A stretch of DNA of 22,058 nt from a virus (IMGVR_UViG_3300006903_000029:1-22058); one strand, 5' to 3'; shown: positions 4,418 to 22,058, counted from the first letter of the stretch. Program-made: numbers and translations. Notes: generated by a model not told the origin, from the letters alone.

Positions 4418-5108
4418 CGACCGTCAATTCTTCGCCCTTGCATCGAGTGATGCAGGGGCGTGGCTTGAGCGTGCAGTAGTTCCTACGCAGTCGGAAGCCT
4501 GCGAGCAGGAACTTACGCGCATGACCGGGGAAGCACCGCAAACCTTTGCTCAGATAGCCTCGCGCTATAGTCGTCGCTTTGAGACAAGAATCGCGGAACA
4601 AATATACCGGGAGCATGAAGCTGCTCGTTGGTGGCTGCCGGATATGGGCCGCAATTGGGGCTACACAGAAACGCTCACAATGGATGGAGACTTCGGAAGG
4701 ATAATCATTCCGAGCCGCCGTCGTAATTTGATCGTGCCCCACGCATCGTATGAAACTCGAATGACTGTGAACAGCGACGGACGTAATACGTTCGAGGCCA
4801 GATACCCGGACGGGGCCGAACTTAACCTTCGGATTTGGCCGGATACAATCTATGGCCTTTACGTCGGCGGGGTTCGCAATTCTCATTACGTTTCACAGCC
4901 AGACTACCGCTTCATTCTCGGCGAATTACAAGCCGGGCGTGGCGAGCGTATTATGATGCGTGAGCCAGTGGACTTCCGACGAATGATGACTCGCGGGGAG
5001 TTGACGGAGTATGAGCCGCCGCGAACAACCGCCTACGAACCAACAGCCTACGAACTTCCTTCGGCAGCCCGACAGGATTCACACTTCCTAATCTTGAGGC
5101 AAATATGA
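4392..5108 (+). CDS. Hypothetical protein with TAYEP-rich C-terminus
   Basis: I do not recognise this 238-residue protein. It lies in the replication cassette, overlapping the kinase gene by 26 nt and the Nudix gene by 4 nt (ATGA), so it is very probably translated as part of the same operon. The middle (about 70-190) alternates short hydrophobic segments, as in a beta-rich fold: WWLPDMGRNWGYTETLTMDG, FGRIIIPSR, LNLRIWPDTIYGLYVGG and DYRFILGELQAG. The C-terminus has low-complexity near-repeats (TEYEPPRTTAYEPTAYELP) that are probably disordered. The first ATG (4392) has only a weak ribosome site; an alternative in-frame ATG at 4521 lies downstream of an AGGA. No catalytic motif is visible. Confidence 0.7.
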   Translation: MPALREPDNDRQFFALASSDAGAWLERAVVPTQSEACEQELTRMTGEAPQTFAQIASRYSRRFETRIAEQIYREHEAARWWLPDMGRNWGYTETLTMDGDFGRIIIPSRRRNLIVPHASYETRMTVNSDGRNTFEARYPDGAELNLRIWPDTIYGLYVGGVRNSHYVSQPDYRFILGELQAGRGERIMMREPVDFRRMMTRGELTEYEPPRTTAYEPTAYELPSAARQDSHFLILRQI

Positions 5109-5590
5109 TGCAGTACGTGTTGGTCTTTCCGCATTGTCCAGTTTTCAATGGGCCGGACGTGCATGACGTGATGCTGATTCGCAAGGCCAAACCGGAATGG
5201 CAGAAGGGCCGCTTGAATCTAGTCGGCGGGAAGGTCGAGCCGGGTGAGTCTTTCGATCAAGCCGCCGTGCGGGAGTTTATCGAGGAAACCGGCCTCGACT
5301 GCTACAACTTTCAGCGGGCCGGGACTATTCGCTCCGACCGCAGCGGCTTCGTCCTTGGAGTTTATACCTGCGACACGGTATGGGCGGAAATAAAGTCCGA
5401 GCCACTTGAGAAGGTGGACTGGTTTGTTTGGGAGGAAGTGCGAACCGACCGGGCGCTAATGGATAATTTGCGCGTAGTCATACCCCTGCTCCTCGCAGGC
5501 ATGACTGGTTGGGAGTTAATTCACGGACGAGACGACGCCGGCCACGAAATCTGCAAGATTGAATGGGAGCCTGCGCATGTTGCCGTATGA
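5105..5590 (+). CDS. Nudix hydrolase
   Basis: This 161-residue protein has a complete Nudix box: G42-x5-E48-x7-R56-E57-F58-x-E60-E61-x-G63-L64 (GKVEPGESFDQAAVREFIEE and onward). The family hydrolyses nucleoside diphosphates linked to another group, using Mg2+ bound by the box glutamates. In a phage nucleotide cassette a likely role is clearing damaged or non-canonical dNTPs or altering nucleotide pools; the substrate cannot be read from sequence. It starts in an ATGA overlap with the preceding gene. An in-frame second ATG follows directly at 5108. The C-terminal 50 residues (LLAGMTGWELIHGRDD and onward) extend past the core fold. Confidence 0.9.
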   Translation: MMQYVLVFPHCPVFNGPDVHDVMLIRKAKPEWQKGRLNLVGGKVEPGESFDQAAVREFIEETGLDCYNFQRAGTIRSDRSGFVLGVYTCDTVWAEIKSEPLEKVDWFVWEEVRTDRALMDNLRVVIPLLLAGMTGWELIHGRDDAGHEICKIEWEPAHVAV

Positions 5591-6562: not shown

Positions 6563-7129
6563 TCATGCTCCGTAGATAGTATCCACCAGCCCAAGTTCCT
6601 TTGCTTCCTTGGCCGAGAGGATTAGGTCGGCTGCGCATTTCTTCCGCCAAAAGCTAATTGGCCTGCCCGACCGCTCAGCGTATATCTCGTACATACGCTT
6701 TTGAGTTTTCTTGGAATACTCCGCCCAATTCTGGAAGGTTGTCGGAATGTCATTGACCCTGGACTCGTAACCATCGTGGACCATGACGGTTGCGTTCGGG
6801 TAGATGATGCGCTGATCGGCAGCTTGCAAAATGATGCTGCCCATTGACATAGCTGAGCCAACCACGTAGATAGTGATTGGACAGGGACAGGCTTTGATAG
6901 AGTCATACACGGCCATGCCGTTAAACCAACACCCGCCGAAGCTATTGAGATATATCGTAATCTCTTTATCTTGAGCGGCGTTCGCCAGCATATGCAGGGC
7001 TTTTACAGCAAACTCCGATGTTCGCTGATTCACCCCATCTTCCTTATCGTCTCCTATGTAAACTGTGCGCGACTCAACATGAATGTCGTAGTCGTAGAAC
7101 CTATCAATACTCTCACGAACGAGTTTCAT
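6563..7129 (-). CDS. ClpP-family serine protease
   Basis: A 188-residue protein with the ClpP/crotonase fold signature. The nucleophile region VVGSAMSMGSIILQAAD places S95 where the canonical GQAASMGA serine lies. H118 is in ATVMVHDGY, and D168 in CAADLILSAKEAKELGLVD aligns with the DRDFFMSA-EAKEYGLID aspartate, so the catalytic triad appears intact. Length is near the roughly 195-200 of bacterial ClpP. In phages such proteins usually act as head maturation proteases beside portal and capsid genes; here it sits after the tail-tip gene, so its substrate is unclear. GAGG 6-7 nt before the ATG is a good ribosome site, and the gap to the upstream gene is 11 nt. Confidence 0.88.
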   Translation of the reverse strand: MKLVRESIDRFYDYDIHVESRTVYIGDDKEDGVNQRTSEFAVKALHMLANAAQDKEITIYLNSFGGCWFNGMAVYDSIKACPCPITIYVVGSAMSMGSIILQAADQRIIYPNATVMVHDGYESRVNDIPTTFQNWAEYSKKTQKRMYEIYAERSGRPISFWRKKCAADLILSAKEAKELGLVDTIYGA

Positions 7130-7140
7130 TTTATCCTCGA

Positions 7141-10107
7141 TTACGGGACGGGTTCGCTGTGGAAACCTTCGAGTGACCTATCTTCCTCTTTTGGCTCCGT
7201 GCAAGGTTGACCGAAGTTATCGCTGTCGGGGTCTTCGTCAATTCCAAGATCAGTACACCCACCGAGCAGCCACGTATCCTCTTTGCCAACAACCCATCCA
7301 TGACCATCGCTGCGTGCGGTGATTTCTTGCTGCTTCGTGTTCAAGAATGTATCTGCCATCACCTTTGAGTTGAACGTGTACTGTTCAATCTTGGATGGAT
7401 CGCCGTTCGCCAAGTCGCCAGTATCGCCAGCAGTCGTGCCAAAGGAATGGTCAGGTTGCTTGATAACTAGCGACGGGATGATGTAGCGGACTGTCACTAC
7501 GCAGGTGCAATTTCCGCCGACCTTATCCGGCAACTTTTTCTTTGCTGCATCTTCTGTGGCATCATCATTGCCCGCAGCATCCTTGGCTTCCTCAGCCGTT
7601 TGCTGAGCATTGAACGCCGCCTGCTGTGCGTTATCAGCTTTCCGCTCCACACGCTGAACGTAGGAGTTGGTAATCATCCCGTTAGACACCGGGGAAGTCT
7701 TCGTGCTAACCGGGCCAGTCGCGTCCTGCGGGGCCTTTGGCGTCGGCTTGGTATCGCCCTTATCCGAAGGTTTCTTGTCACCACGGTCATTATGCGGGCA
7801 CAAGGTAGGCTGGACTAGCGACGTGTTCGAGCAATCAAACTCGACATTGAAGCTAGGCGCACCGGGATTGTTGGGTGACAGCGGGTGTCCAGGTGGCGCA
7901 ATCGTATGGAAGTTGGGAGCCTTATTCCGGCTCTGCCAAGAGTTCTGTTCTTCCTCAAGAGTCGGGAAGATCGTCTGCTCGTCAATGTCGGCAGGCCACG
8001 CAAAGTTGTAAGGTGTTCGCGTGCCAGCTTTGCAAGGTGTCCACAACTCAAAGTTAACCGTGTGGTCGTTAGAGTTGTAGTTAGCCTTCTCGACGATACA
8101 CTTCACTGTGCCATCGGCAACATCGGGCAACGTAATGCTCATGCAGTCAAAGGACTCAAAATTCAACTTGTTCACAAGAGTCTTGAACTGCGCTCGCCGC
8201 CAAGTATTTGACTTGCGGATCATCCAGAAGGTAGCGGTCTTTTGGACTAGCTCAAAGATATTGAAGCAGTAGAAGTCATAGTCCAAAGGATGCGTGCCGT
8301 AGTCTGGGACATTGCGTGCCCGCAAGATCAGCAGGTTATCTTTGTTGACTGCGTAATCAGACTTCCAGTGTGCAATGAACTTTGTCACCAAATCTTCGGT
8401 GGAAGTATGGACGATTTTTAGCGAGTTAGGCATCACGTCCGATTCGGTCAGCATACCATCAGCATCCGGCTCAAGGGCCAGATACCGAAGAAAGAATTTG
8501 TTGTCTTTCAACCACAACGCACAACGAGCCTGGAAGGCAATTTCCTCCAAGACGTTGATGAGACTCTTTCGCTCAAGTAGAGCGAAGTGCATTGGATAAT
8601 TGTCAATCAGGTCACGCACGTCATCGAAGCTAACAGTGTCGGTGTCATAGTCAGTGTACGTGTCGATGAACCATTCGATAATGTCCACCGTGTTCGGACC
8701 AACTGACGACGTGAGGGTGACGTAAATATCATCCTCCCATCCACCACCCTCTTTTAGATTCTGTGTGCTGAGAGCCTGATTCAAAACGATTTCGGTGACG
8801 CCGGTGTAGCCGGTGTAGTCCGTTTCTCGAACAGTATAGTATTCAGGTGGCACGGTATAAAGGGACCGCAAGCCGTCGATTGTACGGAAGGCTGCCACGC
8901 GAAGAACGGTCGATGGAAGCAAATTGGCGATGTACACGATTTTCTTGTCGGCATTCATCGTCACCCGCGAGCCACCATTCGCCCAAAAGAAACTGGTTGA
9001 GTCAGCAGCATTGTATTTAGCCCAACTTAGCTTCGAGCCAGCAGCATTAACAGTCTGTGGATTTCCAGCGGCATCGACCGAAGCATTCTCTGTCGTAGAG
9101 CCTTGGGAGTAGGCGGGTGGTCCGCACTTGCTCTCAATCTCTTTCTGTGTGTCTGACTTCCTGACACGCCCATGCCCATCATTCTCAGGATGGACTCGCC
9201 CGGTGATGGTGAAGATTTCGCCATTCATCTTGCCAGTGAATAACCCATTCTTAATGTTGAGCGTGATAGTCGTGTTCTGCGGGAATAAGCTGCCACCAAA
9301 GACACGGACGGGACTGTACTCAGCCGCCTTTTGTTCTTTCAACTCCAACTTCAACCGCTCTAACTCCGTGCATTTCTGCTGAGCGCAACTGGCATCTTCG
9401 CAATACTGCGGCGTATAGATTAGACCACCACCGGGGGAAGTGGCGATGGTTGTTGAGTAGCCGCAAATACTAGATGGGCAGGTTAGTTTCTTGGCAAGGT
9501 CAATACGGTGTTCCAGCGTAAAGTCATGGATGCCCGTGCCATCTGCCAGGATACCTTGCCGCACTGAATCGACACGTAGGGCCGGGACATTGGCAACCGT
9601 GCCAAAGCACAGAGGCCACGGCTTGCCGATTAGAGTTTCGGGCGGATTCGGAAATGCACCTTCCTCGATTGAGAAGCCAACTTCAATATCCTCAATCTTA
9701 GACACAACATCGAATCGCAACGTCCTGTCGCCCTCATCCCACTCGATAGGTGAGTTGAGTACGCCCTGAAATATCAGGAACTTATCGTCAAGGCTCATGC
9801 CTTGGAACCACTGATACACCCAACACTTTTTCTTGTGCGGGTCAGTAGAGTCTAGGATTGTCTTGAGTTCGCCGCTAGGGTCATTCAGGCTCACACTAAT
9901 CTGCTGTGACTGCGAGCCACCCGACACCCCAATAACATCATCCAGTCCACTTACATCATGGATGACACCCTTCACACCGGGCGCTTCTTTATCACCATAG
10001 GCAATGCGAGGCCCACCCGTCACCCATTGAACCTCAATGATGACGACTGGCTCGGTCCCTAAGCGGGTTGCCAATTTGTCGAGGGCACTAGAACTTAGAT
10101 TGCGCAT
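7141..10107 (-). CDS. Large tail tip / baseplate hub-like protein
   Basis: A 988-residue protein at the distal end of the tail genes. Residues 1-170 (SLNDPSGELKTILDS, WVYQWFQG, FLIFQGVLNSP, LRFDVVSKIEDIEVGF) look like the N-terminal beta-domains of phage hub proteins that sit on the tail tube. Residues about 490-700 (LLERKSLINVLEEIAFQARC, ALWLKDNKFFLRYLAL, KTATFWMIRKSNTWRRAQF) suggest further hub-like domains. A short Ala/Gln-rich coiled coil (about 821-858, ADNAQQAAFNAQQTAEEAK) precedes a cysteine-containing C-terminal part. Several CxxC-like cysteines occur near 210-250 (CPSSICGY, CEDASCAQQKC). In long-tailed phages the large protein after the tape measure gene forms the tip and often contacts the host. 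The hub assignment is by position and style, not a firm domain match. AAGG 7 nt before the ATG supports the start. Confidence 0.6.
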   Translation of the reverse strand: MRNLSSSALDKLATRLGTEPVVIIEVQWVTGGPRIAYGDKEAPGVKGVIHDVSGLDDVIGVSGGSQSQQISVSLNDPSGELKTILDSTDPHKKKCWVYQWFQGMSLDDKFLIFQGVLNSPIEWDEGDRTLRFDVVSKIEDIEVGFSIEEGAFPNPPETLIGKPWPLCFGTVANVPALRVDSVRQGILADGTGIHDFTLEHRIDLAKKLTCPSSICGYSTTIATSPGGGLIYTPQYCEDASCAQQKCTELERLKLELKEQKAAEYSPVRVFGGSLFPQNTTITLNIKNGLFTGKMNGEIFTITGRVHPENDGHGRVRKSDTQKEIESKCGPPAYSQGSTTENASVDAAGNPQTVNAAGSKLSWAKYNAADSTSFFWANGGSRVTMNADKKIVYIANLLPSTVLRVAAFRTIDGLRSLYTVPPEYYTVRETDYTGYTGVTEIVLNQALSTQNLKEGGGWEDDIYVTLTSSVGPNTVDIIEWFIDTYTDYDTDTVSFDDVRDLIDNYPMHFALLERKSLINVLEEIAFQARCALWLKDNKFFLRYLALEPDADGMLTESDVMPNSLKIVHTSTEDLVTKFIAHWKSDYAVNKDNLLILRARNVPDYGTHPLDYDFYCFNIFELVQKTATFWMIRKSNTWRRAQFKTLVNKLNFESFDCMSITLPDVADGTVKCIVEKANYNSNDHTVNFELWTPCKAGTRTPYNFAWPADIDEQTIFPTLEEEQNSWQSRNKAPNFHTIAPPGHPLSPNNPGAPSFNVEFDCSNTSLVQPTLCPHNDRGDKKPSDKGDTKPTPKAPQDATGPVSTKTSPVSNGMITNSYVQRVERKADNAQQAAFNAQQTAEEAKDAAGNDDATEDAAKKKLPDKVGGNCTCVVTVRYIIPSLVIKQPDHSFGTTAGDTGDLANGDPSKIEQYTFNSKVMADTFLNTKQQEITARSDGHGWVVGKEDTWLLGGCTDLGIDEDPDSDNFGQPCTEPKEEDRSLEGFHSEPVP

Positions 10108-10116
10108 TGGACGCCT

Positions 10117-10530
10117 TTAGCAAGATTCAGGGGCCGGGGCAGATACCCGGACGCCTTCAAAGGTTAAGGTGATTGACTGGTCGGGGTCATAGCCACCGGG
10201 TAAACTGCGCAAACTGCCGGACTTGAATTCAAAGGGGTCGCCAGTTAGATACCCTTCCCACGTCTCGTTCTTGTGATTAACAAGTCGGATTTTGGCCCGG
10301 TAGTAGGAACGAATGAAAGCCCGTAGCTCTAACGCTTTCGGTCGTGCGAGGGTAAAAGTGTACGTCAACTCAGAGCGGTCATTGGACTTGACGTAGGAAT
10401 AGAGTGTGCCGTCCATTGCTTGATAGAAGGTGGCCGAGTGCTTCGGTGTCTCACCATCCCCAAACTCCGGGTTCGGGAGAATGGTCATTGTGGTTGGCGT
10501 CGGCAACGGTGCTAATAGAATTACGCTCAT
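10117..10530 (-). CDS. Small tail-associated protein, paralogue of the preceding protein's C-terminal domain
   Basis: A 137-residue protein. By eye its core aligns with the last 120 residues of the upstream 390-residue protein: NPEFGDGE against NPEPDNSD, then ALELRAFIRSYYRAKIRLVNH against VSDMKNFMMASLGREIGLLD, then TWEGYLTGDP against QWRGVIKTPD, and SITLTFEGV against SITFEFQGE. The shared pattern looks like a small beta-sandwich with one helix, plausible for a tail or tip component. It starts in an ATGA overlap and its Shine-Dalgarno (GGGGAGG, 5 nt spacing) is encoded by the end of the upstream gene. The function is not known. Confidence 0.65.
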   Translation of the reverse strand: MSVILLAPLPTPTTMTILPNPEFGDGETPKHSATFYQAMDGTLYSYVKSNDRSELTYTFTLARPKALELRAFIRSYYRAKIRLVNHKNETWEGYLTGDPFEFKSGSLRSLPGGYDPDQSITLTFEGVRVSAPAPESC

Positions 10531-11699
10531 ACAACCTCCCCTTGAAACTCAAAGGTGATGCTGCGATTGTGCCGACCTTGTTGTGTGATCTGTGCATCCG
10601 GCGTTTTGATTACGCCACGCCATTGACGGTTCTCCCAATCCAACAGACCAATCTCCCTGCCCAATGAGGCCATCATAAAGTTCTTCATGTCTGAAACTTG
10701 CTGCCCCGTTAGATTGTTGACGGTCAGATGCAAGGTTTGAGACTTCGGCCACTTTGGATCGGCAAAGATGATTAGTGAACCGCCACGCGATTCGCGTTTG
10801 ATGCGATTGAAAGAAAGCACGTCGGAATTGTCCGGCTCAGGATTTCGCAACACCAGAACAATGTCCGACGTGGCATACGGATAAGTAAGTGTGAGAGTGG
10901 CATGTCCAAGTACCGGCGGTGTCGTCGAGGGTGCTGTGTAAGAGGGGTCGCCACCCGTACCCACGAAGGGTGTATAGTTCTTCGGGGTACATCGACTTTC
11001 AACAACGCCTATTGCCGATTGGGAAAAGGAAATGGCCGAGTTTACTGACCTTTTAAGGACGGCTGTATATGTTGCTTGACTATCAAAAGCAATTACGTGT
11101 GATACCTCATCGCCCTTCCCAACCGTGACTGCTTGCGTCAATGCCAAGGTGCTGATGGCGATATTCTTTCGCTCAGCCGTACTGGTCAAAGACATAGTGG
11201 TGGTGGCAGAGGCCGGACGTGGCCGGCCTGCAACCGATGACAACACCATTATCGAGGAAGCTGCTACTGTGAAGTCATGCGCTACACCCACAACTTGTAC
11301 AAAGTTTAGTGGAGTAACTACTTCCTCGCTCTTGATATTCGAGATAATGTCCTGCTGGAAGTCTAGCGCGCTGCTTACGCTGCGAGCATAGTTCACTGTC
11401 TCAGTTGCGGTGGACGTGAATGCCAGGATACTGTTAATTGGGATCGTCGTATAGACCGCTGTATCCGTGAAGGCGAGTGTGGATGATGCCACACCAAAAG
11501 CATCGCGCTGGTATGTAGCGGACTGCGAGAAGCTGATAGCACTGCTGACAAGGACTGGCTCATCTACCGCCGTGGCATCGCTAGTAAACGCCAGTACCGA
11601 CTCTACGGACTGCTCCAAAGGATTGTCCGTAAGATCAATGCCAAGGGTTTCATTACCCCAAAGACTATCGGAAGTACCTAGCCGTCCTGTTAGCGACAT
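10527..11699 (-). CDS. Eleven-repeat virion protein with C-terminal tail domain
   Basis: A 390-residue protein in two parts. Residues about 33-232 consist of eleven degenerate units of 16-20 residues with a core of the form S-x-(I/L)-x-F-x-x-(S/T)-A. The cores lie at residues 35, 54, 74, 91, 111, 130, 150, 168, 184, 202 and 222; two units share SAISFSQSA exactly. Such short hydrophobic/Ser-Thr repeats suggest an extended beta structure, for example a fibre or solenoid; this is inference. Residues about 255-390 are a compact domain duplicated as the next gene. The ATG overlaps the upstream stop codon (TAATG). Placement between adhesin-like genes and the hub suggests a tail-tip fibre or spacer protein. 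Confidence 0.7.
   Translation of the reverse strand: MSLTGRLGTSDSLWGNETLGIDLTDNPLEQSVESVLAFTSDATAVDEPVLVSSAISFSQSATYQRDAFGVASSTLAFTDTAVYTTIPINSILAFTSTATETVNYARSVSSALDFQQDIISNIKSEEVVTPLNFVQVVGVAHDFTVAASSIMVLSSVAGRPRPASATTTMSLTSTAERKNIAISTLALTQAVTVGKGDEVSHVIAFDSQATYTAVLKRSVNSAISFSQSAIGVVESRCTPKNYTPFVGTGGDPSYTAPSTTPPVLGHATLTLTYPYATSDIVLVLRNPEPDNSDVLSFNRIKRESRGGSLIIFADPKWPKSQTLHLTVNNLTGQQVSDMKNFMMASLGREIGLLDWENRQWRGVIKTPDAQITQQGRHNRSITFEFQGEVV
11004..11603 (-). repeat. Coding repeats: eleven ~18-residue units
   Basis: Spacing between successive unit cores is 19, 20, 17, 20, 19, 20, 18, 16, 18 and 20 residues. Units are diverged in sequence except for the SAISFSQSA pair (units 2 and 11), so the array appears old and is held by structure more than by recent DNA duplication. 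Confidence 0.65.
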
Positions 11700-12628
11700 T
11701 ATTCCTTACTCCAATGCAAGAGCCTTCCAATGCCCTCATGGGTATTGTTGGAGTTGGCAGAGACAAAGAATCCAACTTGATCGGGACCACCACTCATGTA
11801 GGTAGTCTTACCGAATGACTTAATGAGAATCCAATTCTTTCCGTCAATGCCTGTGTAGAATTTCAAGTTAGTGCCGTCATTCTCGATCTTCAACCACACC
11901 ACGTCTAGGGTGAACCAGCGATTAGACGACTTCTCGGTGGTGAAGAATGACGTGCTGGTATTCCAGATTGAAACCTCAAGATTCATGTATGAGGAATCAT
12001 TGGCAGGGATGCAATTGATGGCGTTTAGTTTGCCATCTGAATTCTTCCGAAAGCAAAGGCCAAACCTGTTGGCACTTCCACTTTGGATACTCGGCATACA
12101 ACAACGCCAAGCCGCGATGTACGCATAGGGAGTTGAGGGTGCTGAGCGATATAGGACGTGGGCATTGGTCCCACTTTCAACTGGATACCGCATTAAGATC
12201 GTGCCATTTTGATCTGTGGCTGAAGCGCTACCCTGATGGTCCCAGGTGAAATCACTGACAGCAAGAGCAGCCGTAGCTCCATCATTCATAATCTTGCCGA
12301 AGGGTCGCTCGGCAATCGAGGCCCCAAATATGGGGTGATAGTCCATACCCCGCCGCTTCAAGCTACCTGCGGTAAGGACAAGGCTGATTGCTAAGGCGTC
12401 GGCATGGGAGGCTGCCGTAGTTCCCTCATGCCCGCGCGTGACCGTAAGCGTATTGCTGGAACGGGCCGTACAAAGCATTATCTCGCTCTGGCAGACGAGA
12501 CGGAAATTTCCTGTTGAGGGAAACACTGAGCCATCCGTGACAGTGATACTTGTAACACTGTTATTGATCGACCCATTTAGGGTCGTCGTTGCCAGAGATT
12601 TGATTTGTTCTTTTAGGGGTGCGGTCAC
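11699..12628 (-). CDS. Adhesin-like tail protein, paralogue 3 of 3 (LamG/ConA-like C-terminal domain)
   Basis: 309 residues from the GTG at 12628, the most diverged of three tandem paralogues. The N-terminal 80 residues match the others (TTLNGSINNSVTSITVTDGS, SEIMLCTARSSNTLTVTRGH, GTTAASHAD). The C-terminal two thirds have the pattern of a laminin-G/concanavalin-type beta sandwich, with VVWLKIENDGTNLKFYTGID followed by GKNWILI and ending in LLHWSKE. Such domains in phage tails commonly bind carbohydrate, so a receptor-binding role is inferred. The start is chosen because GTGA overlaps the upstream stop and because the equivalent position is the ATG start in paralogue 1. GGAG lies 9 nt upstream. 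A TTG at 12643 would add five residues. Confidence 0.65.
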   Translation of the reverse strand: MTAPLKEQIKSLATTTLNGSINNSVTSITVTDGSVFPSTGNFRLVCQSEIMLCTARSSNTLTVTRGHEGTTAASHADALAISLVLTAGSLKRRGMDYHPIFGASIAERPFGKIMNDGATAALAVSDFTWDHQGSASATDQNGTILMRYPVESGTNAHVLYRSAPSTPYAYIAAWRCCMPSIQSGSANRFGLCFRKNSDGKLNAINCIPANDSSYMNLEVSIWNTSTSFFTTEKSSNRWFTLDVVWLKIENDGTNLKFYTGIDGKNWILIKSFGKTTYMSGGPDQVGFFVSANSNNTHEGIGRLLHWSKE

Positions 12629-13563
12629 GATGCACGACTCCAATGAACCAGCCGGATATGGTTCGTTTCGCTGCCATTATCAGAATTGTTGCAGCCCCAG
12701 AATACTCGATTTGGCGCACCAGCCATGTGCGCGGTTCGGCTGGCCGAAGCAATTTGAATCCACTCCACACCATCCATGCTAATATAGAAAATCAGGTTGG
12801 TGTTGTTATCTTCCACCTTTAGCCAAACAACCGAGCCGATAAACGTGATAGTAGTCTTTGCCAGCAAGTCAGTCGTGACTGTGGTGGCATTCGTCCACTG
12901 GTAAACTGCAACCTGTTTAGCACGGCCACCAGAGCGACTGTCAGCTTGAACAGCCAGCGTTGTCAACTTGCCTGTGCTGCTTTCCCGGAAGCCGAGGCAG
13001 AAGAACGCATAGTCAGGGCTACCTTCAACCGGCATGAGTGGTTGAAAGGCGGCGATGTAACTATACGGGGCCGAGGGTGCTGTGCGTTCGAGGATACGCA
13101 CGTTGTCGCCAGAACTTGTTGTAGGGATAAGTAGGATCGTCCCATCTTCATCGGTCTTAGTGGACGACCCTTGATTCTGCCAAGTGAAATCTGTAGCCGC
13201 TAGTACGGTAACACCATCATCATCGACAAGCAGATTGAGCGGCAGCAGACTCGACCAACCCCACAGTGGAATGTTGTCGGCGGCAAGACGGTCATACCCA
13301 TCGGCTGTAATGACTTGAAAGATTTTCTTGCCATCTGCGTGCGAGGCTGCGGTTGTTCCATCTTGCCCGCGAACAACAGTCAGGTTGTTGCTGGACCGGG
13401 CTGTGACCAGCATAATCTCGCTCTCGACCACAACGCGGAAGTTGCCCGTCGAGGGGTACACAGACCCATCCGTGACAGTCACGGTTGTAACGCTATTGTT
13501 GATCGCACCATTCAAGGTCGTCTCAGTAGCGTTCTTCGTTAGTTCTTTTGCAGGAGCGGTCAC
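12625..13563 (-). CDS. Adhesin-like tail protein, paralogue 2 of 3 (LamG/ConA-like C-terminal domain)
   Basis: 312 residues from the GTG at 13563, closest to paralogue 1. Shared blocks are TTLNGAINNSVTTVTVTDGS, VESEIMLVTARSSNNLTVV, ASDFTWQNQGS-type (ATDFTWQNQGSS), RILERTAPSAPYSYI, LGFRESSTGKL and the terminal RLVHWSRAS. The beta-sandwich signature is VVWLKVEDNNTNLIFYISMD followed by GVEWIQI. The middle (about residues 165-225) differs most from its neighbours. The GTG forms a GTGA overlap with the upstream stop, and GGAG encoded by the conserved HWSR end of the upstream gene provides the ribosome site. A receptor-binding role is inferred from fold style and position. Confidence 0.65.
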   Translation of the reverse strand: MTAPAKELTKNATETTLNGAINNSVTTVTVTDGSVYPSTGNFRVVVESEIMLVTARSSNNLTVVRGQDGTTAASHADGKKIFQVITADGYDRLAADNIPLWGWSSLLPLNLLVDDDGVTVLAATDFTWQNQGSSTKTDEDGTILLIPTTSSGDNVRILERTAPSAPYSYIAAFQPLMPVEGSPDYAFFCLGFRESSTGKLTTLAVQADSRSGGRAKQVAVYQWTNATTVTTDLLAKTTITFIGSVVWLKVEDNNTNLIFYISMDGVEWIQIASASRTAHMAGAPNRVFWGCNNSDNGSETNHIRLVHWSRAS

Positions 13564-14498
13564 GATGCACGACTCCAATGCACCAGCCGGGCCAGTTGCT
13601 CGTAGGTGCTATTGTTGTAATTGTTGATGCCCCAAATGATTCGATTAGGCCCACCAGCCATATGCCCTGTTCGGCTCTCCGTCTGGACCAATACCCACTC
13701 GATGCCATCGCCAACATAGAACTTTAAGTTGGTATTGTCATCCTCAATCTTGAACCAAAGCAGATGATCGCAGAGTCCGTGGAATCGAACAGTCAAGCCT
13801 GTCCCGCTGAACGTGGTTGAATTGGTCCACTTGTAAGTTGACAGCACCATGCCGTCAACCCAGAAGCCACCATTGTTTTGATTGCTCAAACAGATTGCAC
13901 TCACCTTACTGGTGCTGCTCTCACGGAAGCCAAAGAACACCAGTGGAATAGACCCGCTGCCAGGAATCAAGAGTGCGCGTAATGCTCCGATGTAGCTATA
14001 TGGCGCTGATGGAGCGGTACGCTCTAAGATGCGAAGGTTCTCACCTGTCGCAGTCGGGGCACGCAGGAGAATGGTCCCGGCCTGATCTGTCTTTGATGCA
14101 CTTCCTTGGTTCTGCCAAGTAAAGTCACTAGCCGCAAGGATGGTGGAACCATCATCGGCGACCAGTTTGTTCAGAGCAGGTTGGCTCGAATATCCCCACA
14201 GCGGCACGTAGTCGGCATTGTACTGGTTAATGCTGGCATCGGTTAGGATCAGTGCAATCTTCGACAAGTCAGCGTGCGAGGCTCCCGACGTGCCCTCCTG
14301 ACCGCGAACGACCGTGAGCGTGTTACTGGACCGTGCCGTGACCAGCATAATCTCGCTTTCGCACTTCACGCGAAAGTTGCCGACCGAAGGAAACACGGAA
14401 CCATCAGTCACCACGACGGACGTGGTGCTATTATTGATCGACCCATTGAGGGTCGTCTGAGTCGAGTTGGCGAATTGCTCTTTTAGTGGCGCAGACAT
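13560..14498 (-). CDS. Adhesin-like tail protein, paralogue 1 of 3 (LamG/ConA-like C-terminal domain)
   Basis: 312 residues, first of the three tandem copies in transcription order. It has the same architecture: an N-terminal domain of about 85 residues (TTLNGSINNSTTSVVVTDGS to GTSGASHAD), a linker, then a beta-sandwich with LLWFKIEDDNTNLKFYVG, GIEWVLV and the RLVHWSRAS end. The ATG at 14498 has no clear Shine-Dalgarno and begins only about 6 nt after the T-run of a strong terminator, so transcription must read through that hairpin. This would keep copy number of these proteins low, as expected for tail-tip adhesins; that is inference. Confidence 0.65.
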   Translation of the reverse strand: MSAPLKEQFANSTQTTLNGSINNSTTSVVVTDGSVFPSVGNFRVKCESEIMLVTARSSNTLTVVRGQEGTSGASHADLSKIALILTDASINQYNADYVPLWGYSSQPALNKLVADDGSTILAASDFTWQNQGSASKTDQAGTILLRAPTATGENLRILERTAPSAPYSYIGALRALLIPGSGSIPLVFFGFRESSTSKVSAICLSNQNNGGFWVDGMVLSTYKWTNSTTFSGTGLTVRFHGLCDHLLWFKIEDDNTNLKFYVGDGIEWVLVQTESRTGHMAGGPNRIIWGINNYNNSTYEQLARLVHWSRAS

Positions 14499-14560: not shown

Positions 14561-15151
14561 TTAGCCGCTTACCGTGTAGGTGATTTTGAGAGTATCACCG
14601 TTAGAAACTGCAACAGTCGAGGCGAACGCAGCCGTCGCCCAGAGCGTGCCAGACGTGCCACCCTTCGTGTTGTTGCTTGTCACAAAGATGCCCTTGATCG
14701 TGGCCGTGGCATTGATTGTGAAGTCAACAGTGGACGAGTTGGTGATCGACCGGCTCGCAGCCGTACCTGCCGTCCACGTAGGACGATTGGCATTGCTGTA
14801 GGCTGTCGATTCAGTCCAACCGGCGTGGCTCGCCATTGTGTCCGCTGCGGCCAAAGCCGAGAAGCCGGAGTTGTCGATTAGGCCCAGATACCAAGTCGTA
14901 ATCTGGGTTCCCGAATGGAAGTAGATTTCGAGGATGCTGTTAAGACCAACATCCACGATTCCATTGGGAATGGTAAACTGCGACAAGACCTGTCCATCGC
15001 GGATATGCTCAACGATGAATCGGCCCTTCATGTTCATTCGGGCCAGGGGCGGCGGGGCTTCCGCAGCAAAAGCCGGGGCAGAAGCAATGGTCGCACCATC
15101 ACCACGCACCAACTCAAAGGCAACCGAATCTTCAAACGCTACTTTGTTCAT
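14561..15151 (-). CDS. Small tail-associated structural protein (fibre-like beta domain)
   Basis: A 196-residue protein just downstream of the tape measure gene. After about 40 residues it reads as an all-beta virion domain: FIVEHIRDGQVLSQFTIPNG, then IVDVGLNSILEIYFHSGTQI, TTWYLGLIDNSGFSALAAAD, TMASHAGWTE, RPTWTAGTAASRSITNSS, IKGIFVTSNN and GDTLKITYTVSG. The NGIVxVGLNxxLxxxF and WYLGLIDNxGF pattern is one I associate with conserved phage structural proteins of unknown detail. The ATG is supported by GGAGA about 7 nt upstream; the gap from the tape measure stop is 12 nt. A terminator follows directly, so it is the last gene of its transcriptional segment. Confidence 0.65.
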   Translation of the reverse strand: MNKVAFEDSVAFELVRGDGATIASAPAFAAEAPPPLARMNMKGRFIVEHIRDGQVLSQFTIPNGIVDVGLNSILEIYFHSGTQITTWYLGLIDNSGFSALAAADTMASHAGWTESTAYSNANRPTWTAGTAASRSITNSSTVDFTINATATIKGIFVTSNNTKGGTSGTLWATAAFASTVAVSNGDTLKITYTVSG

Positions 15152-15163
15152 GGTATCTCTCCG

Positions 15164-18100
15164 TTATGTTCTGAGACGAATGTTGCCTCGGCGGATTTCC
15201 CGGTTCAATGCCCGGCTAATATCGCGTCCGATGACTTCACCAGTTTGACGATTACCCTGCGTGTTTACATTAACATCGCCAATGTTAAAGTTGGTGACAG
15301 GTCCACCAGCGGCCCTAAATACAGGTTGACGACCTGAGTTTATCGCAACCAACTGAGAAAAGAATTTCCGAGTTGATCGAGCGTTTACTACGAACTCACC
15401 CGGCGTTAGCATAGCCGGTACTGTATCAGTCCCGCGAGGCTTGAAGGGGCTTGGCCCACCGCCTGCAAGATACGCCGGAATGACACCACCCAAAGCCCGA
15501 TACACTAGACCGCCAGTGGAGAATTCTTCTGCTCCACTGCCGCCGCCTCCCGCACGGGCTGCATTCAATTCGCGCTGAGCCGCCGCAGCATTACGCGCGG
15601 CCGCAGCTTCACTATTCAATTGGCCTGAGAGCGATGACGAAGCACTGCTGGCTGCACTGGCCGAAGTGGCGGCAGCCGATGTTGCCGATGCAAGAGCGCC
15701 TTCCTCAGTGGCAGCTTGGGATGTTGTGTTCAGCAACTCTTTAGCTGTGTTGAGTTGTCCTTCAACATTCGCACCCTGCTGCACTTGCTGATTTGCTTGC
15801 TGCAACTTGCTGGCATCTTGCACGTATTGTGCGATAGCTCCCGCCAGCGAACGATATGATTCCGACAACTTCGGATTCGAGGTTTCTGTTTCCTTACTCA
15901 ATGCCAAAAATTGCTGAACAGCAGCCGTTGCAGCTTTTGTGTCACCGGACTCTGCGGCGGCAATTCCCTTTTGAGCAATCTCCAATGCCTTCTGATTGCC
16001 GATGACGGCATTGATGAATTGGTCGCTCAAGCCCGCTGTGATGCCACTTGGATTGACAAGTTCACCAGCACCCGCTTTGAGTTTCTGTAAAACCTGTGTC
16101 ACCGTTCCGGCATTGGTCTGCACACCTTGGGCTAGTTGCTTGAACTCAACTTCAATCTTAGCCAAGTCACGGACAACGGCATCCTTTGCAGTCGCCACGT
16201 TAGATTGCAACTCAGTCAGATTGGCCCCGGTCGAGATACCTTGCGTGGCCTGTTTCGCTCGTTGTACAATGGCCTTCTCAATTTTATCTAGGCCAGCACC
16301 TTGATTAAGCAGCTTCTCCGCATCCAATCCACTAGCCAAAGATAATTCGGTGAGTACCGGCTTGACCTTAATCTCAAACTCTTTGTTGTTCAAAGCAGCT
16401 TGCAGACTCGCCGCAGCACCCTCGAATGAAGTCTTAATAGAGACTTCCTTGCCCAACTGATCCGTCAGGGGCTTGCGAATATCTTTCAGCAAATCCCCGA
16501 TGCCAAGTTTCTTAGCAAGGTCAGGATCGCCAGCTTTAGCCAACCGCTTCTGGATTTCCTCGGCAAGAGGAATGGCCTCGCGGAACTTAGCGATGCGTTC
16601 ATCGTTGCTGAGTTTCTGGTCTTTGAGAGCGTCGTTTTGTAGCTTCTCGATTTGGGATTCGAGGGCTTTGATTTCCGCCAGATTTTGCTTCTGGCTGGCA
16701 AGTTCCTTTTGTGCGGTGGCCGCAGCTTCCTTTGCGAGAGCGGTCTTTCGCAACTCAGCACCGATCTGGTCGCCAAGCACGGCATTGATAGCATCTTCTG
16801 CCTGCTTCAAACGGGCACGGTCGCCAGCCTGCTTCGCCGTGTTGGCAGCAGATTCCGCAAGCGATGCAGCCTCTTGGCGAACGGCATCTGCCTGTTGCTT
16901 GGCCTGCACCGTGCCTTGGGCTTCAAGGTCATTGGCTTGCCGACGTAGGGCATTGATGCGGTTCAGGTCATTGAATACTTGCTGACCTTCGGGCAGACCT
17001 TGATTAGCTCGGTTGAATCGGTTTTGACCAACTGTGCGGGTTAGCTCGGTGATATTGGTAAACTGGTCCTGCTCGGCCTTGGCAGCGCCCTTGATTGCAT
17101 CTTCTAACTTCCCGACGTAATCCTCATACGCCTTGATTCGGTCTTTCAACTGTGATCGAAGATTCTCGGTCACAAGTTGCTGAGACTTGATAGCATCCTG
17201 GGCGCTCTTGTTATAGAGAGCCTGGGCATCGGAGATAAACTTTTGCAGGGCAGTTACGGACTTGTCCAACTCTTGCTTGCGGCCTTCCGCAATCAGTTGG
17301 TTTGCCTTCGTGGTATTTTCAGCATCCTTGCGGCGGGCCTCAGCACGGCCAGCAAATACATCGTCGAGAGCGGCCTTGGCCTTGTCACCTGCGCTACCTA
17401 GATCGGCAATGGCTTTGCCGAGAGCGATGACGCCAACAGTGATGGCGATGATCGGCCCGGTGGTAGCGATGAATGCTACGATGCCACGGCCAGCAGCTAC
17501 AGCACCCGCCGCAACTTTGGCGAAGGATAGCGTGAGCAGTCCATTACCTGCGGCAAGTAGCGCGGCATTGAAGTTGGCCGCGAATAGATTGGCAGCATAC
17601 ACAGCAGCCGCAGCCGCCGCGATTTTGATTACGTTGGTCAACCCGCCGAATGGGGCAGACAGTGCCGAGATTGCGGCCAAGGCATTACGGCCAATGTCCA
17701 CAATAAACAGATTCTTGACCCGCTCTAAGTCTTGTTCTACTTGCTTGGCATTCGTGTTGATGATGATGTTATTTTTCTGCTCAAGCAGATCAGCACCAAC
17801 CGCCTTGATCTTGGCGAGGTTCTCGGCAGCGCGCTCAGCTTGATCGCCAGTCAATCCGATAACGCCGCGAGCAACGCGAATGTTCTCGGTCAGTTGCGTG
17901 ATTTCAGAGGCCGTGTCACCAGAGATAGCTGTGATCTTTTCCAAGAACGGCAGGAACCCACCCGCTGCCTGGATGCCAGCTTCCGCCGTGCTAACTCCTA
18001 GCTCAGCAAACACCGCCTTCATTTCAGTTGTTGGCTTCAACAGGCCACGGATCGTGTTGCCCAACAGGGTCATAGCCTCATCAGCCGGAACGCCCGTAAC

Positions 18101-19207
18101 TGTGAGGGTAGCCAAGGCTGCCAGCACTTCGTCGATGCTAACACCAACCTGCGCGGCCACGACGGTAACACGACCGAGAGAATCAGCAACTTGGTCCAGA
18201 GTGAATCGGCCCAAGTCAACGGCCTTAAACAACTTGCCAGAGATATTCGCCGCCTCAGACGTGGCAAGGTTGTAGGAATTCAGTACCGAGGAAATCGCAT
18301 TAACGGCCTGTGGAGTTGTAGCCCCGGTCACGTTAGCCAACTTCAATGCAGTCGCCAGCACGTCTGCACTTTCAGCAGCATTACCGATTTGATTCGACAG
18401 TAACTCATATTGTGCCGCTGCCACTTCTGTAACGGGCCGACCGAATTCATCAGCCAGGGCACGAACCTGTTTGTTCAGTTGCTCAATGCCGCCGACTTCC
18501 GACCCGGCAATTGTCTGGATGCGGGCCAGGGTCTTTTCGTAAGTTACCGCAGCCGTCACGCCTTCGATCAGACCATTTGTAATTTTGCTGATCGCATTTG
18601 ACAGTAAGTTGGCGGACACGACTGCCGCGAGGAACCCGGTATTCAGGTTGCTCAGGAAGTTGCTGCCACCACCGCCAGCATTCTTAATACCATTCAGTTG
18701 CGTAATTAACTTCGCAATCTGAGCCTGTGGACCGACGAAGGCTGAACCCAAGTTGTTGCCGATGCTCTTAATCTGATTTGCAGTCAGACCGGCCCTTGCA
18801 CCAACTTGGGAGATTTTCTGAATGAGGGCATTCGCCTGATTGAGCGAATCGCCTGAAAGCCCTGCGGTTTCTCCGCCAAGGGACTTTTGAATTTTGATGG
18901 CGGAGGCTTGCTGAGTCCGCCGAGAAGCAGCCGCAGCCTCAGCAGCCGCAGCCTTCTGAGCGGAAGCCGCCGCCTGATCTTGGGCACGTTGCAAGCTGCC
19001 GAGAGTCTTAACAAGGTCCGTGACGGCCTTCGCATCCTGATTGATGGAGCCGAGTAGATTCTGACCGGACTTGCTAAAGGCAGTATTGGCAGCCGCCGCA
19101 GCCTGCACGTTACGTGCATACTGGCTAAATAGGGAGCCGAGCGTTCGCAGCGTGCTAATCGCTTGCGAAGCATCTAACCCTAGCTTCTGTGTGATTTCAT
19201 CTGCCAT
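15164..19207 (-). CDS. Phage tail tape measure protein (TP901 family)
   Basis: A 1347-residue tape measure protein that sets tail length and is expelled during DNA injection. Residues 1-180 are Ala/Gln-rich and coiled-coil-like. Residues about 210-430 carry the TP901-type core (AVTYEKTLARIQTIAGSEVG, LADEFGRPVTEVAAAQYELL, VNAISSVLNSYNLATSEAAN, GVSIDEVLAALATLTVTGVP, TIRGLLKPTTEMKAVFAELG). A hydrophobic stretch at about 525-605 (IVAFIATTGPIIAITVGVIA) could span membrane on ejection. Long helical and coiled-coil segments follow. The C-terminus has GTDTVPAMLTPGEFVVNARS (1259-1278), a motif typical of these proteins. The ATG overlaps the upstream stop (TGATG). Confidence 0.95.
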   Translation of the reverse strand: MADEITQKLGLDASQAISTLRTLGSLFSQYARNVQAAAAANTAFSKSGQNLLGSINQDAKAVTDLVKTLGSLQRAQDQAAASAQKAAAAEAAAASRRTQQASAIKIQKSLGGETAGLSGDSLNQANALIQKISQVGARAGLTANQIKSIGNNLGSAFVGPQAQIAKLITQLNGIKNAGGGGSNFLSNLNTGFLAAVVSANLLSNAISKITNGLIEGVTAAVTYEKTLARIQTIAGSEVGGIEQLNKQVRALADEFGRPVTEVAAAQYELLSNQIGNAAESADVLATALKLANVTGATTPQAVNAISSVLNSYNLATSEAANISGKLFKAVDLGRFTLDQVADSLGRVTVVAAQVGVSIDEVLAALATLTVTGVPADEAMTLLGNTIRGLLKPTTEMKAVFAELGVSTAEAGIQAAGGFLPFLEKITAISGDTASEITQLTENIRVARGVIGLTGDQAERAAENLAKIKAVGADLLEQKNNIIINTNAKQVEQDLERVKNLFIVDIGRNALAAISALSAPFGGLTNVIKIAAAAAAVYAANLFAANFNAALLAAGNGLLTLSFAKVAAGAVAAGRGIVAFIATTGPIIAITVGVIALGKAIADLGSAGDKAKAALDDVFAGRAEARRKDAENTTKANQLIAEGRKQELDKSVTALQKFISDAQALYNKSAQDAIKSQQLVTENLRSQLKDRIKAYEDYVGKLEDAIKGAAKAEQDQFTNITELTRTVGQNRFNRANQGLPEGQQVFNDLNRINALRRQANDLEAQGTVQAKQQADAVRQEAASLAESAANTAKQAGDRARLKQAEDAINAVLGDQIGAELRKTALAKEAAATAQKELASQKQNLAEIKALESQIEKLQNDALKDQKLSNDERIAKFREAIPLAEEIQKRLAKAGDPDLAKKLGIGDLLKDIRKPLTDQLGKEVSIKTSFEGAAASLQAALNNKEFEIKVKPVLTELSLASGLDAEKLLNQGAGLDKIEKAIVQRAKQATQGISTGANLTELQSNVATAKDAVVRDLAKIEVEFKQLAQGVQTNAGTVTQVLQKLKAGAGELVNPSGITAGLSDQFINAVIGNQKALEIAQKGIAAAESGDTKAATAAVQQFLALSKETETSNPKLSESYRSLAGAIAQYVQDASKLQQANQQVQQGANVEGQLNTAKELLNTTSQAATEEGALASATSAAATSASAASSASSSLSGQLNSEAAAARNAAAAQRELNAARAGGGGSGAEEFSTGGLVYRALGGVIPAYLAGGGPSPFKPRGTDTVPAMLTPGEFVVNARSTRKFFSQLVAINSGRQPVFRAAGGPVTNFNIGDVNVNTQGNRQTGEVIGRDISRALNREIRRGNIRLRT

Positions 19208-20424: not shown

Positions 20425-21468
20425 TTACACGCGAGACACGCCCGGCTCAACGGAATTACACTTTCCCGTCACGCTGATCGTGGCATCACGCAAGTTGAAT
20501 TCGAGGCTCTCGTACCGGAAGTCCGGGAACGTGTAATCCTCATTCAACTCTGACCCGCAGGGCGGATCGTACACAACTTCAATGTCAATGGCGAACGGCT
20601 CGCACGGGTCGCTAGACGAACTAGCAATCGTGGAGGCTTCACCTTGCTGCTTGAGGAAGTCGATAGGTGACGGAAGCCAAGCCCCGCCCGACCCATTCGT
20701 GTAGAACTCATACAGCAAATCCAGCTTCACTTCGACCGGCTGCTCATCGCCACGTCGAACCGTGTCTAGGTCGCCACGGTCACGGACGTAATCGAATTCG
20801 CGCTTCTCAGACCAAGTGAGATTGCCGTTACCAACCTTAATCTCGATGCGAGCAGGCAGGAAGGTAATGTCGGCATTGTCAGCCGGGATTCCATCAGCCG
20901 TGGCAAAGGCCGGGCTGAACGTGATGATGCCGGTCGTGCCGCCCTGATTGAGCGTGCTGACCGTCACCGTATCGCCGCCACCCGACAAGTCCACGTCCGT
21001 AGCCGTCATTTGGGCGACGTTCGTGTTCAGGTAGGCTTGGGTAAACTTCACGATCCACTTGCCGGTCGCGGGCTTCGTCACAATCACGTCGCCAGGGGCG
21101 ATGTTGGACAGAGCCTCAAGAGCCGTCTGCACGTCGCTCGCGCTCGCGTTATAGGCGATATTCGCGGTCGTTTGTGCGCTGAAAGTGAGGGTGAAGTTAC
21201 CAGACGTGGCATCCACGGTAACAAGTTGGTTTTCGTTCTTGTCCGTGGCAGTCACGGTATAGAACGCTTGGGTCGAGCCGACCACCGAAAACCGTGCGCC
21301 AATTGGCACGACGGTTCCAGCATCCGGGAGGCTCGCCAAGTTGTCAATGTAAATCGACGTGTTACCATTGGCCGGTGCAGCCGGAGCGCCAGGTCCATTG
21401 ACTTTGGCCGTGCCGGCAAAACCGTCCTTAAAGTAAATCGTCGTGTTACGAAGTTCAATTTGAGCCAT
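20425..21468 (-). CDS. Major tail (tube) protein-like, with inserted domain
   Basis: A 347-residue protein two positions ahead of the tail chaperone, the normal locus of the major tail protein. Residues about 195-345 (ITFLPARIEIKVGNGNLTWS, KREFDYVRDRGDLDTVRRGD, EVKLDLLYEFYTNGSG, DPPCGSELNEDYTFPDFRYE, ATISVTGKC) are nearly the same as the paralogue upstream. Residues about 86-178 are an extra domain absent from the paralogue (GNFTLTFSAQTTANIAYNAS, SDVQTALEALSNIAPGDVIV, WIVKFTQAYLNTNVAQMTAT), resembling a beta-type domain found in multiple phage virion proteins and large surface proteins. The start ATG has AAGGA upstream. Tube role by position and duplication; it could instead be a minor or decorated tube subunit. 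Confidence 0.65.
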   Translation of the reverse strand: MAQIELRNTTIYFKDGFAGTAKVNGPGAPAAPANGNTSIYIDNLASLPDAGTVVPIGARFSVVGSTQAFYTVTATDKNENQLVTVDATSGNFTLTFSAQTTANIAYNASASDVQTALEALSNIAPGDVIVTKPATGKWIVKFTQAYLNTNVAQMTATDVDLSGGGDTVTVSTLNQGGTTGIITFSPAFATADGIPADNADITFLPARIEIKVGNGNLTWSEKREFDYVRDRGDLDTVRRGDEQPVEVKLDLLYEFYTNGSGGAWLPSPIDFLKQQGEASTIASSSSDPCEPFAIDIEVVYDPPCGSELNEDYTFPDFRYESLEFNLRDATISVTGKCNSVEPGVSRV

Positions 21469-21493: not shown

Positions 21494-21948
21494 TTACGGG
21501 TCGCGGGACACGCTCGGCTCGACGGCATTACACTTGCCCGTCACGCTGATCGTGGCGTCCCGAAGATTGAACTCAAGGCTCTCGTAACGAAAATCCGGGA
21601 ACGTGTAATTTTCGTTCGTTTCCGACCCGCACGGCGGATCGTAAATTACTTTCACGTCGATGGCAAACGGTTCGCAGGGGTCGCCAGACGAACTTGCCAG
21701 ATTCGCAGCCTCATTGGCCCGTTTCAGGAAGTCAATGGGCGAGGGCAGCCAAGCACCGCCAGAGCCGTTCGTGTAGAACTCATACAGCAAGTCGATTTTT
21801 ACTTCGACTGGCTGCTCATCCCCACGTCGAACAGTATCAAGATCGCCACGATCCCGAACGTAGTCAAATTCCCGCTTCTCCGACCACGTAAGATTCCCGT
21901 TACCAATCTTGATTTCGATTTGGGCCGGAAGGAACGTGATCGCAGCAT
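21494..21948 (-). repeat. Diverged direct repeat of 20425-20880 (gene duplication)
   Basis: The 3' parts of the two tube-like genes are recognisably the same DNA. For example both carry GTCGAAC near a GACTGGCTG or GACCGGCTG block and end with near-identical codons for RDATISVTGKC. Most base differences fall at third codon positions while the protein is kept, so the duplication is not recent and both copies have been under selection. Confidence 0.7.
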
Positions 21949-22058
21949 CATTGGCAACAGAACTTGCCAAGGCCGGGGTGAAAGTCAAACTGGTAGTCGG
22001 GGGACCGCCAGAGTGAGCAGTTACCGTGTGTACGGGCGTGCCAGTCTCACCAGCGATG
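21494..22058 (-). CDS. Major tail (tube) protein-like paralogue, N-terminus beyond window
   Basis: The frame is open to the right edge (first complete codon at 22057), so the N-terminus is outside. It reads IAGETGTPVHTVTAHSGGPP, then TTSLTFTPALASSVANDAAI and onward. From AITFLP the remaining 148 or so residues differ from the downstream paralogue at only about 18 positions by eye, mostly conservative. The region joining VHTVTA to TSLTFTPA is short here, whereas the paralogue has about 93 extra residues there, so this copy is the simpler form. The next gene starts 26 nt further on. Two tube-like proteins in tandem could form a mixed tube or a tube plus terminator or decoration. Confidence 0.65.
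   Translation of the reverse strand, partial: IAGETGTPVHTVTAHSGGPPTTSLTFTPALASSVANDAAITFLPAQIEIKIGNGNLTWSEKREFDYVRDRGDLDTVRRGDEQPVEVKIDLLYEFYTNGSGGAWLPSPIDFLKRANEAANLASSSGDPCEPFAIDVKVIYDPPCGSETNENYTFPDFRYESLEFNLRDATISVTGKCNAVEPSVSRDP

Follow-up and report, generated by a model that had tools for sequence, protein, structure and literature searches.

A slot for tandem genes of probable lectin-type adhesins in the tail operon of an uncultured phage

Why should a phage keep a row of three related genes whose products agree at their ends and differ in between? The question is raised by the window analysed here, i.e. the whole of a 22-kb record from IMG/VR (IMGVR_UViG_3300006903_000029, 22,058 nucleotides), in which three tandem genes, W1, W2 and W3, lie on the minus strand downstream of the tape measure gene and of a gene termed up196. 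A first-pass annotation of the sequence had described them as adhesin-like paralogues with a conserved N-terminal domain, divergent middles and a LamG/ConA-like C-terminal pattern, and had suggested an expandable receptor-binding array with several specificities for sugars or, alternatively, with a heteromeric tip. Based on a comparison with relatives we propose, with a probability of about three in four, that W1-W3 occupy an exchangeable slot for lectin-type adhesins of the tail tip, in which the copies are fixed within a lineage. Such an array belongs to the modular phage adhesins, a kind already known.

Three paralogues and their embedded ribosome sites

W1 (312 amino acids (aa), 13560-14498), W2 (312 aa, 12625-13563) and W3 (309 aa, 11699-12628) were defined as open reading frames (ORFs) and by alignment, W1 also by an AlphaFold2 model; these and the following window features are on the minus strand unless stated otherwise. 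W1 starts with ATG, W2 and W3 with a GTG that overlaps the stop codon of the preceding gene. As query in a sequence search, W1 matches W2 at E 7e-108 (57%) and W3 at E 2e-86 (49%), which places the kinship of the three beyond chance, and overall identities of the pairs in the alignment are 57, 50 and 46%. Identity peaks at residues 30-60 (80-83%), reaches 57-67% at residues 1-30 and 60-85, is high again at residues 120-175 (48-70%) and is lowest at residues ~180-245 (19-43%). Compared with one another, the three N-domains are 70-72% alike, and the C-termini read HWSRAS in W1 and W2 and HWSKE in W3. ORFs, E-values and alignment thus bear out three tandem paralogues with a conserved N-domain; a variable region exists as well, but it is the middle of a single C-terminal domain, plus a linker at residues ~88-115, rather than the middle of the protein.

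The N-terminal domain of W1 (residues ~1-85; 14244-14498) is of the tail-fibre N-terminal type. The N-termini are matched by phrog_8469 'tail fiber protein' (W1, E 6e-10; W2, 1.5e-8; W3, 2.6e-9), and the family profile matches PDB 8jov 'Putative tail fiber protein' at E 1.7e-10; a literature search by the name 8JOV returned no relevant paper. Tail-fibre N-terminal families (phrog_8469, phrog_38058, phrog_12150; PDB 8jov) align significantly with residues ~1-95, whereas the remainder differs, annotated tail fibres having other C-terminal parts and W1-W3 being short tandem proteins with a single ConA-like domain. From these similarities the N-terminal domain is presumed to dock the protein to the tail.

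The C-domain of W1 (residues ~111-310; 13569-14168) is predicted to adopt a ConA-like jelly-roll fold of the lectin/CBM66 type. The AlphaFold2 model, built on an alignment of 22 relatives (mean predicted local distance difference test score (pLDDT) 85.7), consists of a small beta domain, a helix (residues 87-97) and the jelly roll (residues 111-310). With this model Foldseek yields 193 PDB matches at E <= 0.001, headed by ConA-like enzymes, lectins and carbohydrate-binding modules (CBMs), and the matches of the C-domain (E 1e-5 to 1e-6) comprise CBM66, the DUF1349-like ECA2234, alginate lyases, legume lectins and the CBM2 of the evolved Dit of phage J-1. The likeness to the CBM66/DUF1349-like/PL7 ConA-like structures (PDB 4b1l, 3mep, 2za9) is one of predicted fold, with a target TM-score of up to 0.70 and a sequence identity of only 10-16%. 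The best viral model match of W1 is an uncharacterised 332-aa protein of an uncultured phage (E 3.7e-22), and phrog_19068 matches residues 130-307 of W2 (E 6e-19). The LamG/ConA-like pattern suggested from sequence is thus corroborated by AlphaFold2 and Foldseek, though Pfam alone stays below its cut-offs. As the modelled C-domain resembles ConA-like lectins and CBMs, a sugar-binding role of W1-W3 is likely. A comparable tail-tip protein with a CBM of ConA-like fold is the evolved Dit of phage J-1 (PDB 5ly8), and evolved-Dit CBMs bind hosts (PMC7291167); there the CBM is an insertion within Dit, whereas the predicted lectin domains of W1-W3 are separate ORFs between up196 and the downstream gene dn390.

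Both inner junctions are CATTGGAGTCGTGCATCGTGA, with stop TGA and start GTG sharing GTGA (13560-13563 for W1-W2, 12625-12628 for W2-W3), and 25 nt are identical between them, CATTGGAGTCGTGCATCGTGACCGC. Each has a GGAG 9 nt ahead of the GTG start, embedded in the W-S codons, so that the putative ribosome site of W2 lies within W1 codons TGG AGT (13573-13576) and that of W3 within W2 codons (12638-12641). The same GTGA overlap had been claimed for the junctions in general; this holds for the two inner ones, but the third, W3-dn390, is a TAATG overlap (11697-11701) with its own AAGGA immediately upstream.

Codon choice in relatives was compared for two families, P, to which W1-W3 belong, and Q, the phrog_2448 family, which shares with W1-W3 the slot, the tandem arrays and the embedded ribosome site and is unrelated in sequence; homology of P and Q was rejected (profile comparison, probability 0.3%). 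At stop/start overlaps of P arrays S or R follows the conserved W in 41 cases, and the codon is AGN, giving TGGAG, in 41/41, as against an AGN share of 46% for S and 10.5% for R in P genes overall. The C-terminus of Q is FGV(K/E)V(G/D); at its 27 overlaps (TAATG/TGATG) K/E is encoded by AAG or GAG in 28/28 (background 46%/42%), a choice that gives AAGG or GGAGG-like sites ahead of the next start. The constraint is relaxed where genes stand apart. Since unrelated P and Q have the same arrangement and lose the constraint in separated genes, the codon counts, taken over members that are not phylogenetically independent, indicate selection for translation of the downstream gene. A ribosome site inside the HWSR end, as noted in the first-pass annotation, is therefore supported by the sequence and by codon choice kept in both families, and the embedded sites are also the strongest support for its suggestion that a gain or loss of copies need not harm translation.

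Content of the slot across relatives

The gene order in relatives from IMG/VR is major tail protein(s), chaperone-like gene, g19207, tape measure, up196, (P)n, dn390, dn137 and tip988, with ClpP next in some, and this tail module with its fixed slot from up196 to dn390 is present in dozens of IMG/VR phages. The upstream border, up196 (196 aa, 14561-15151), is conserved in synteny and matches phrog_8123 at E 5e-28; the downstream border, dn390 (10527-11699), was recognised by synteny and alignment and comprises repeats and a C-terminal domain that aligns with dn137. The latter (10117-10530) has a tail-tube/baseplate-like predicted fold (AlphaFold2 model, pLDDT 82.1; Foldseek finds baseplate proteins and tail-tube proteins, the best of them at E 3e-4). 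This fold, together with the alignment of the dn390 C-terminus with dn137, places P among tail-tip genes, from which we infer a tail-tip location of W1-W3. In dn390, repeats of ~25-30 aa precede the tube-like C-terminal domain, and its length varies from ~330 to 1025 aa among relatives; repeat number may vary too.

Among 37 bounded P arrays, three have one copy, six have two, 24 have three and four have six. As these arrays were mostly found using P itself as query, a second census was made via up196, yielding 64 slots bounded by up196 and dn390, 56 of them without P; 12 of these 56 are empty (gap under 75 nt). Many non-empty P-less slots hold proteins of ~345-400 aa, and the examined ones mostly belong to Q, a family of ~360 aa that is present singly (5 loci), in pairs (17) or as five copies (L228 and L255). 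The two five-copy arrays (L228, 7833-13183; L255, 10441-15800) lie in the same slot and have embedded ribosome sites, and their copies are positional orthologues (59-75%). The slot is thus both expandable and exchangeable, its bounded versions holding 0, 1, 2, 3 or 6 P or 1, 2 or 5 Q. A rule of exactly three copies everywhere, derived from the clade of locus L010 (L010-type clade), was rejected, as the up196 census gave empty slots and slots with 1, 2 or 5 genes. Nor do relatives always have three orthologous copies without recombination, the counter-case named in the first-pass annotation: copy number varies between them.

Outside this set, a DNA search of a phage collection gave no match, and cultured phages have distant relatives of the C- or N-domain only. 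The 595-kb uncultured phage L082 (LR756511.1) carries two full-length relatives in tandem, plus a C-domain on its own, at 8995-13143, and in L009 (5880-7985) and L117 (5992-8316) the second array copy is greatly extended at its C-terminus, to 702 and 782 aa, respectively.

Slot content differs between phages of closely related backbone. By tip988 and dn137 the nearest relatives of the window are L180, L218, L183 and L178, whose slots hold one Q and other ORFs, nothing, one Q and one P, respectively; in the tree, W1-W3 group with the copies of L006/L007 (support 96/92). Slot content and backbone therefore have separate histories. Taken over these sequences, copy number is variable between lineages and stable within them.

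A set of copies and its possible functions

In the best-sampled group, the L010-type clade, the copies at position 1 fall into a single clade with full support over ~20 genomes, as do those at position 2 and those at position 3, and bounded arrays always have 3 or 6 copies. Copies 4, 5 and 6 of the four six-copy arrays fall in clades 1, 2 and 3, i.e. one three-gene block was duplicated or acquired, and copy 4 is preceded by a ribosome site of its own. Positional orthologues are also found in L008/L009/L117. The ratios of nonsynonymous to synonymous substitution rates (dN/dS) in close pairs are 0.04-0.34 for N-domains and 0.06-0.26 for C-domains; by this measure the copies of the L010-type clade are under purifying selection, and no positive selection on the C-domains was seen. 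An ancient a/b/c orthology across clades was rejected as well: identity matrices favour no equal positions, so that formation or homogenisation of the triplets took place clade by clade.

Within the L010-type clade the C-domains change together. Their pairwise identities correlate at 0.89-0.91 with each other and at 0.39-0.46 with tape measure or dn137 (Mantel tests), as compared with 0.85 between tape measure and dn137. In 23 pairs with similar backbones the spread of the C-domains within a pair is 0.015 (0.056 after shuffling); over 136 pairs it is at most 0.10, that of the N-domains up to 0.21, and none of the 136 has a single changed C-domain. L013 and L087 are 92-99% identical in most flanking segments and 71-72% in all three C-domains. 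L102 and L105 differ in the opposite sense, with a triplet of 92-95% (P1 N-domain 79%) between flanks of 58-71% and breakpoints that lie where the P1 N-domain ends and where P3 ends. By sequence, the three lectin domains of this clade thus vary jointly from phage to phage, decoupled from the backbone; as one tract spans all three copies, linkage alone could explain the joint change.

What the copies do as a set can be pictured in several ways. They might be obligate 1:1:1 subunits of one fibre or knob, whose single receptor site is built from three lectin domains, an idea to be held tentatively. It would account for the restriction to 3 or 6 copies in bounded slots of the L010-type clade, for the six-copy arrays as a duplicated triplet with coupling inside the triplets and a separate ribosome site between them, for the position-specific N-domains of that clade (paralogues 47-51%, orthologues 72-84%) and for the co-variation of the three C-domains, and a fixed stoichiometry would fit coupled translation. 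A precedent exists in virophage DSLV2, where three consecutive tail proteins form a 1:1:1 heterotrimer and were linked by the authors to Synechococcus phage tail proteins (PMC12724248). DSLV2 and the window share three adjacent related tail genes, as do 24/37 bounded P arrays, but in DSLV2 the heterotrimer is demonstrated and the fibres are gp37-tip-like, whereas W1-W3, a candidate heteromer, have another predicted fold and a copy number that is not always three. Moreover, the same slot functions elsewhere with 1, 2 or 5 copies, so three is no general rule, linkage and a shared host would also yield co-variation, and the likeness of the window's N-domains is compatible with docking at equivalent sites.

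Each copy could instead form its own homo-oligomer for a different sugar, more copies widening the host range. Phages with multiple adhesins exist, and differing C-domains on related N-domains as well as a copy number that differs between lineages would suit this idea. We consider it rather unlikely, as the C-domains do not vary singly and all three copies are under similar constraint; positional orthologues under purifying selection, whose C-domains change set-wise, argue against a free shuffling of independent specificities. Of the array of several specificities envisaged in the first-pass annotation, the expandable slot and the predicted lectin fold thus remain, but free shuffling of independent copies does not stand in the best-sampled clade.

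That the C-domains are enzymes, i.e. depolymerases resembling lyases or glucanases, or decorate the tail in a general way instead of binding receptors, is improbable: the top fold matches include PL7 alginate lyases and glucanases, but target TM-scores are better for the non-catalytic CBM66/DUF1349-type structures (0.64-0.70) than for A1-II' lyases and beta-glucanases (0.44-0.50). A neutral, functionally meaningless tandem duplication can practically be dismissed, for although tandem duplication is common in phages, every copy is intact with low dN/dS, positions are orthologous over ~20 genomes, and the embedded ribosome site is conserved at the codon level in two unrelated families.

Several observations weigh against the exchangeable lectin-type slot proposed here. 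Pfam GH43_C2 and DUF1349 reach 12-15 bits, under their cut-offs of 22.7 and 32.4, and the ConA-like fold is also found in enzymes (alginate lyases, glucanases). Counts over relatives are counts of non-independent events. On the extra copy relative to L006/L007 the trees disagree, N-domains giving a within-genome grouping and C-domains joining W1 and W2 with L006a/L007a. Finally, block exchange and selection were assessed in the L010-type clade, the window's own lineage having only near-identical contigs (L004 and L005, with 1 and 0 differences in 16.5 kb).

A diversity-generating retroelement as a source of variation was rejected, as no reverse transcriptase was found in records with the window's array: PF00078 has no match in L004 and L005 (template repeats were not searched) and occurs in 1/10 records scanned, far from the adhesin array. 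This is the L013 record (72,178 bases), where a PF00078 reverse transcriptase (60 bits) lies at 71516-72049, at the contig end.

Taken together, we favour the exchangeable slot. W1-W3 would then be adhesins at the tail tip of a tailed phage that is uncultured and probably infects Planctomycetota, each combining a tail-fibre-type N-domain, presumably for docking, with a ConA-like lectin/CBM-type C-domain, and in the tail operon they would fill the adhesin slot that up196 and dn390 delimit. The last codons of a cassette would serve at once as conserved protein C-terminus and as ribosome site of the next gene, with overlapping stop and start, so that the next gene may be another cassette or dn390 and translation is kept; coupled translation would yield the products in similar amounts. 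As the comparison shows, the slot is emptied, refilled or expanded, or its lectin domains are exchanged as a block, over evolution; the copies within a lineage are, as seen in other clades, fixed, position-specific and all retained. The set of lectin subunits may then jointly recognise host-surface glycans, whether assembled into a heteromer or docked as several adhesins. A bolder version, namely a general cassette slot for receptor binding across a large group of uncultured phages, in which unrelated lectin-type families convergently embedded ribosome sites in their conserved last residues and a set of three distinct subunits is exchanged and works as a hetero-oligomer, appears doubtful to us.

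Tail module, host and implications

Next to the genes bordering the slot, the tail module of the window comprises the tape measure gene (15164-19207), assigned by length and position, with a homologue in L161 that matches PF10145 PhageMin_Tail, and tip988 (7141-10107), a large protein conserved in the module by synteny and similarity and presumed from its position to be the tail hub. Two tandem major-tail-protein paralogues (20425-21468 and 21494-21988), the longer with an insertion of ~100 aa, have counterparts in L006 and several further relatives. A ClpP-like protease (6563-7129; PF00574, head-maturation-protease PHROGs) follows the tail-tip gene instead of lying near head genes, a position kept in L006 and some others. 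An ORF at 5105-5590, in a plus-strand gene group, has a readable Nudix box (GKVEPGESFDQAAVREFIEETGL).

Among 84,980 scanned species genomes of bacteria and archaea, a single full-length relative was found, L161, in a metagenome-assembled genome (MAG) of Planctomycetota; on its contig there are also an integrase and a primase that resembles the window's (44.9% over 216 aa). A 290-kb contig of the same MAG (L166, L258) has the complete order of tail genes, beginning with the major tail protein and ending with tip988. The element there is apparently integrated and has a P copy ahead of the major tail protein gene, outside the slot, and its slot between up196 and dn390 has no P or Q match. Such elements are rare (2/392 genomes of the phylum, 6/397 of the order). 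A Planctomycetota host is thus likely for this phage group, with a link that comes from a MAG, where binning errors are possible.

Phage host range is usually pictured in terms of a single fibre gene whose tip can be swapped. In the present slot, an entire row of predicted lectin genes would be swapped, lost or multiplied at one site of an operon, and as the protein end itself bears the translation signal, rows of any length work. If heteromeric, the array would be a natural combinatorial adhesin, and a host switch would need a coordinated change of several domains, an idea made directly testable by the pairs L013/L087 and L102/L105. The array also gives a handle on phages of Planctomycetota, their apparent hosts.

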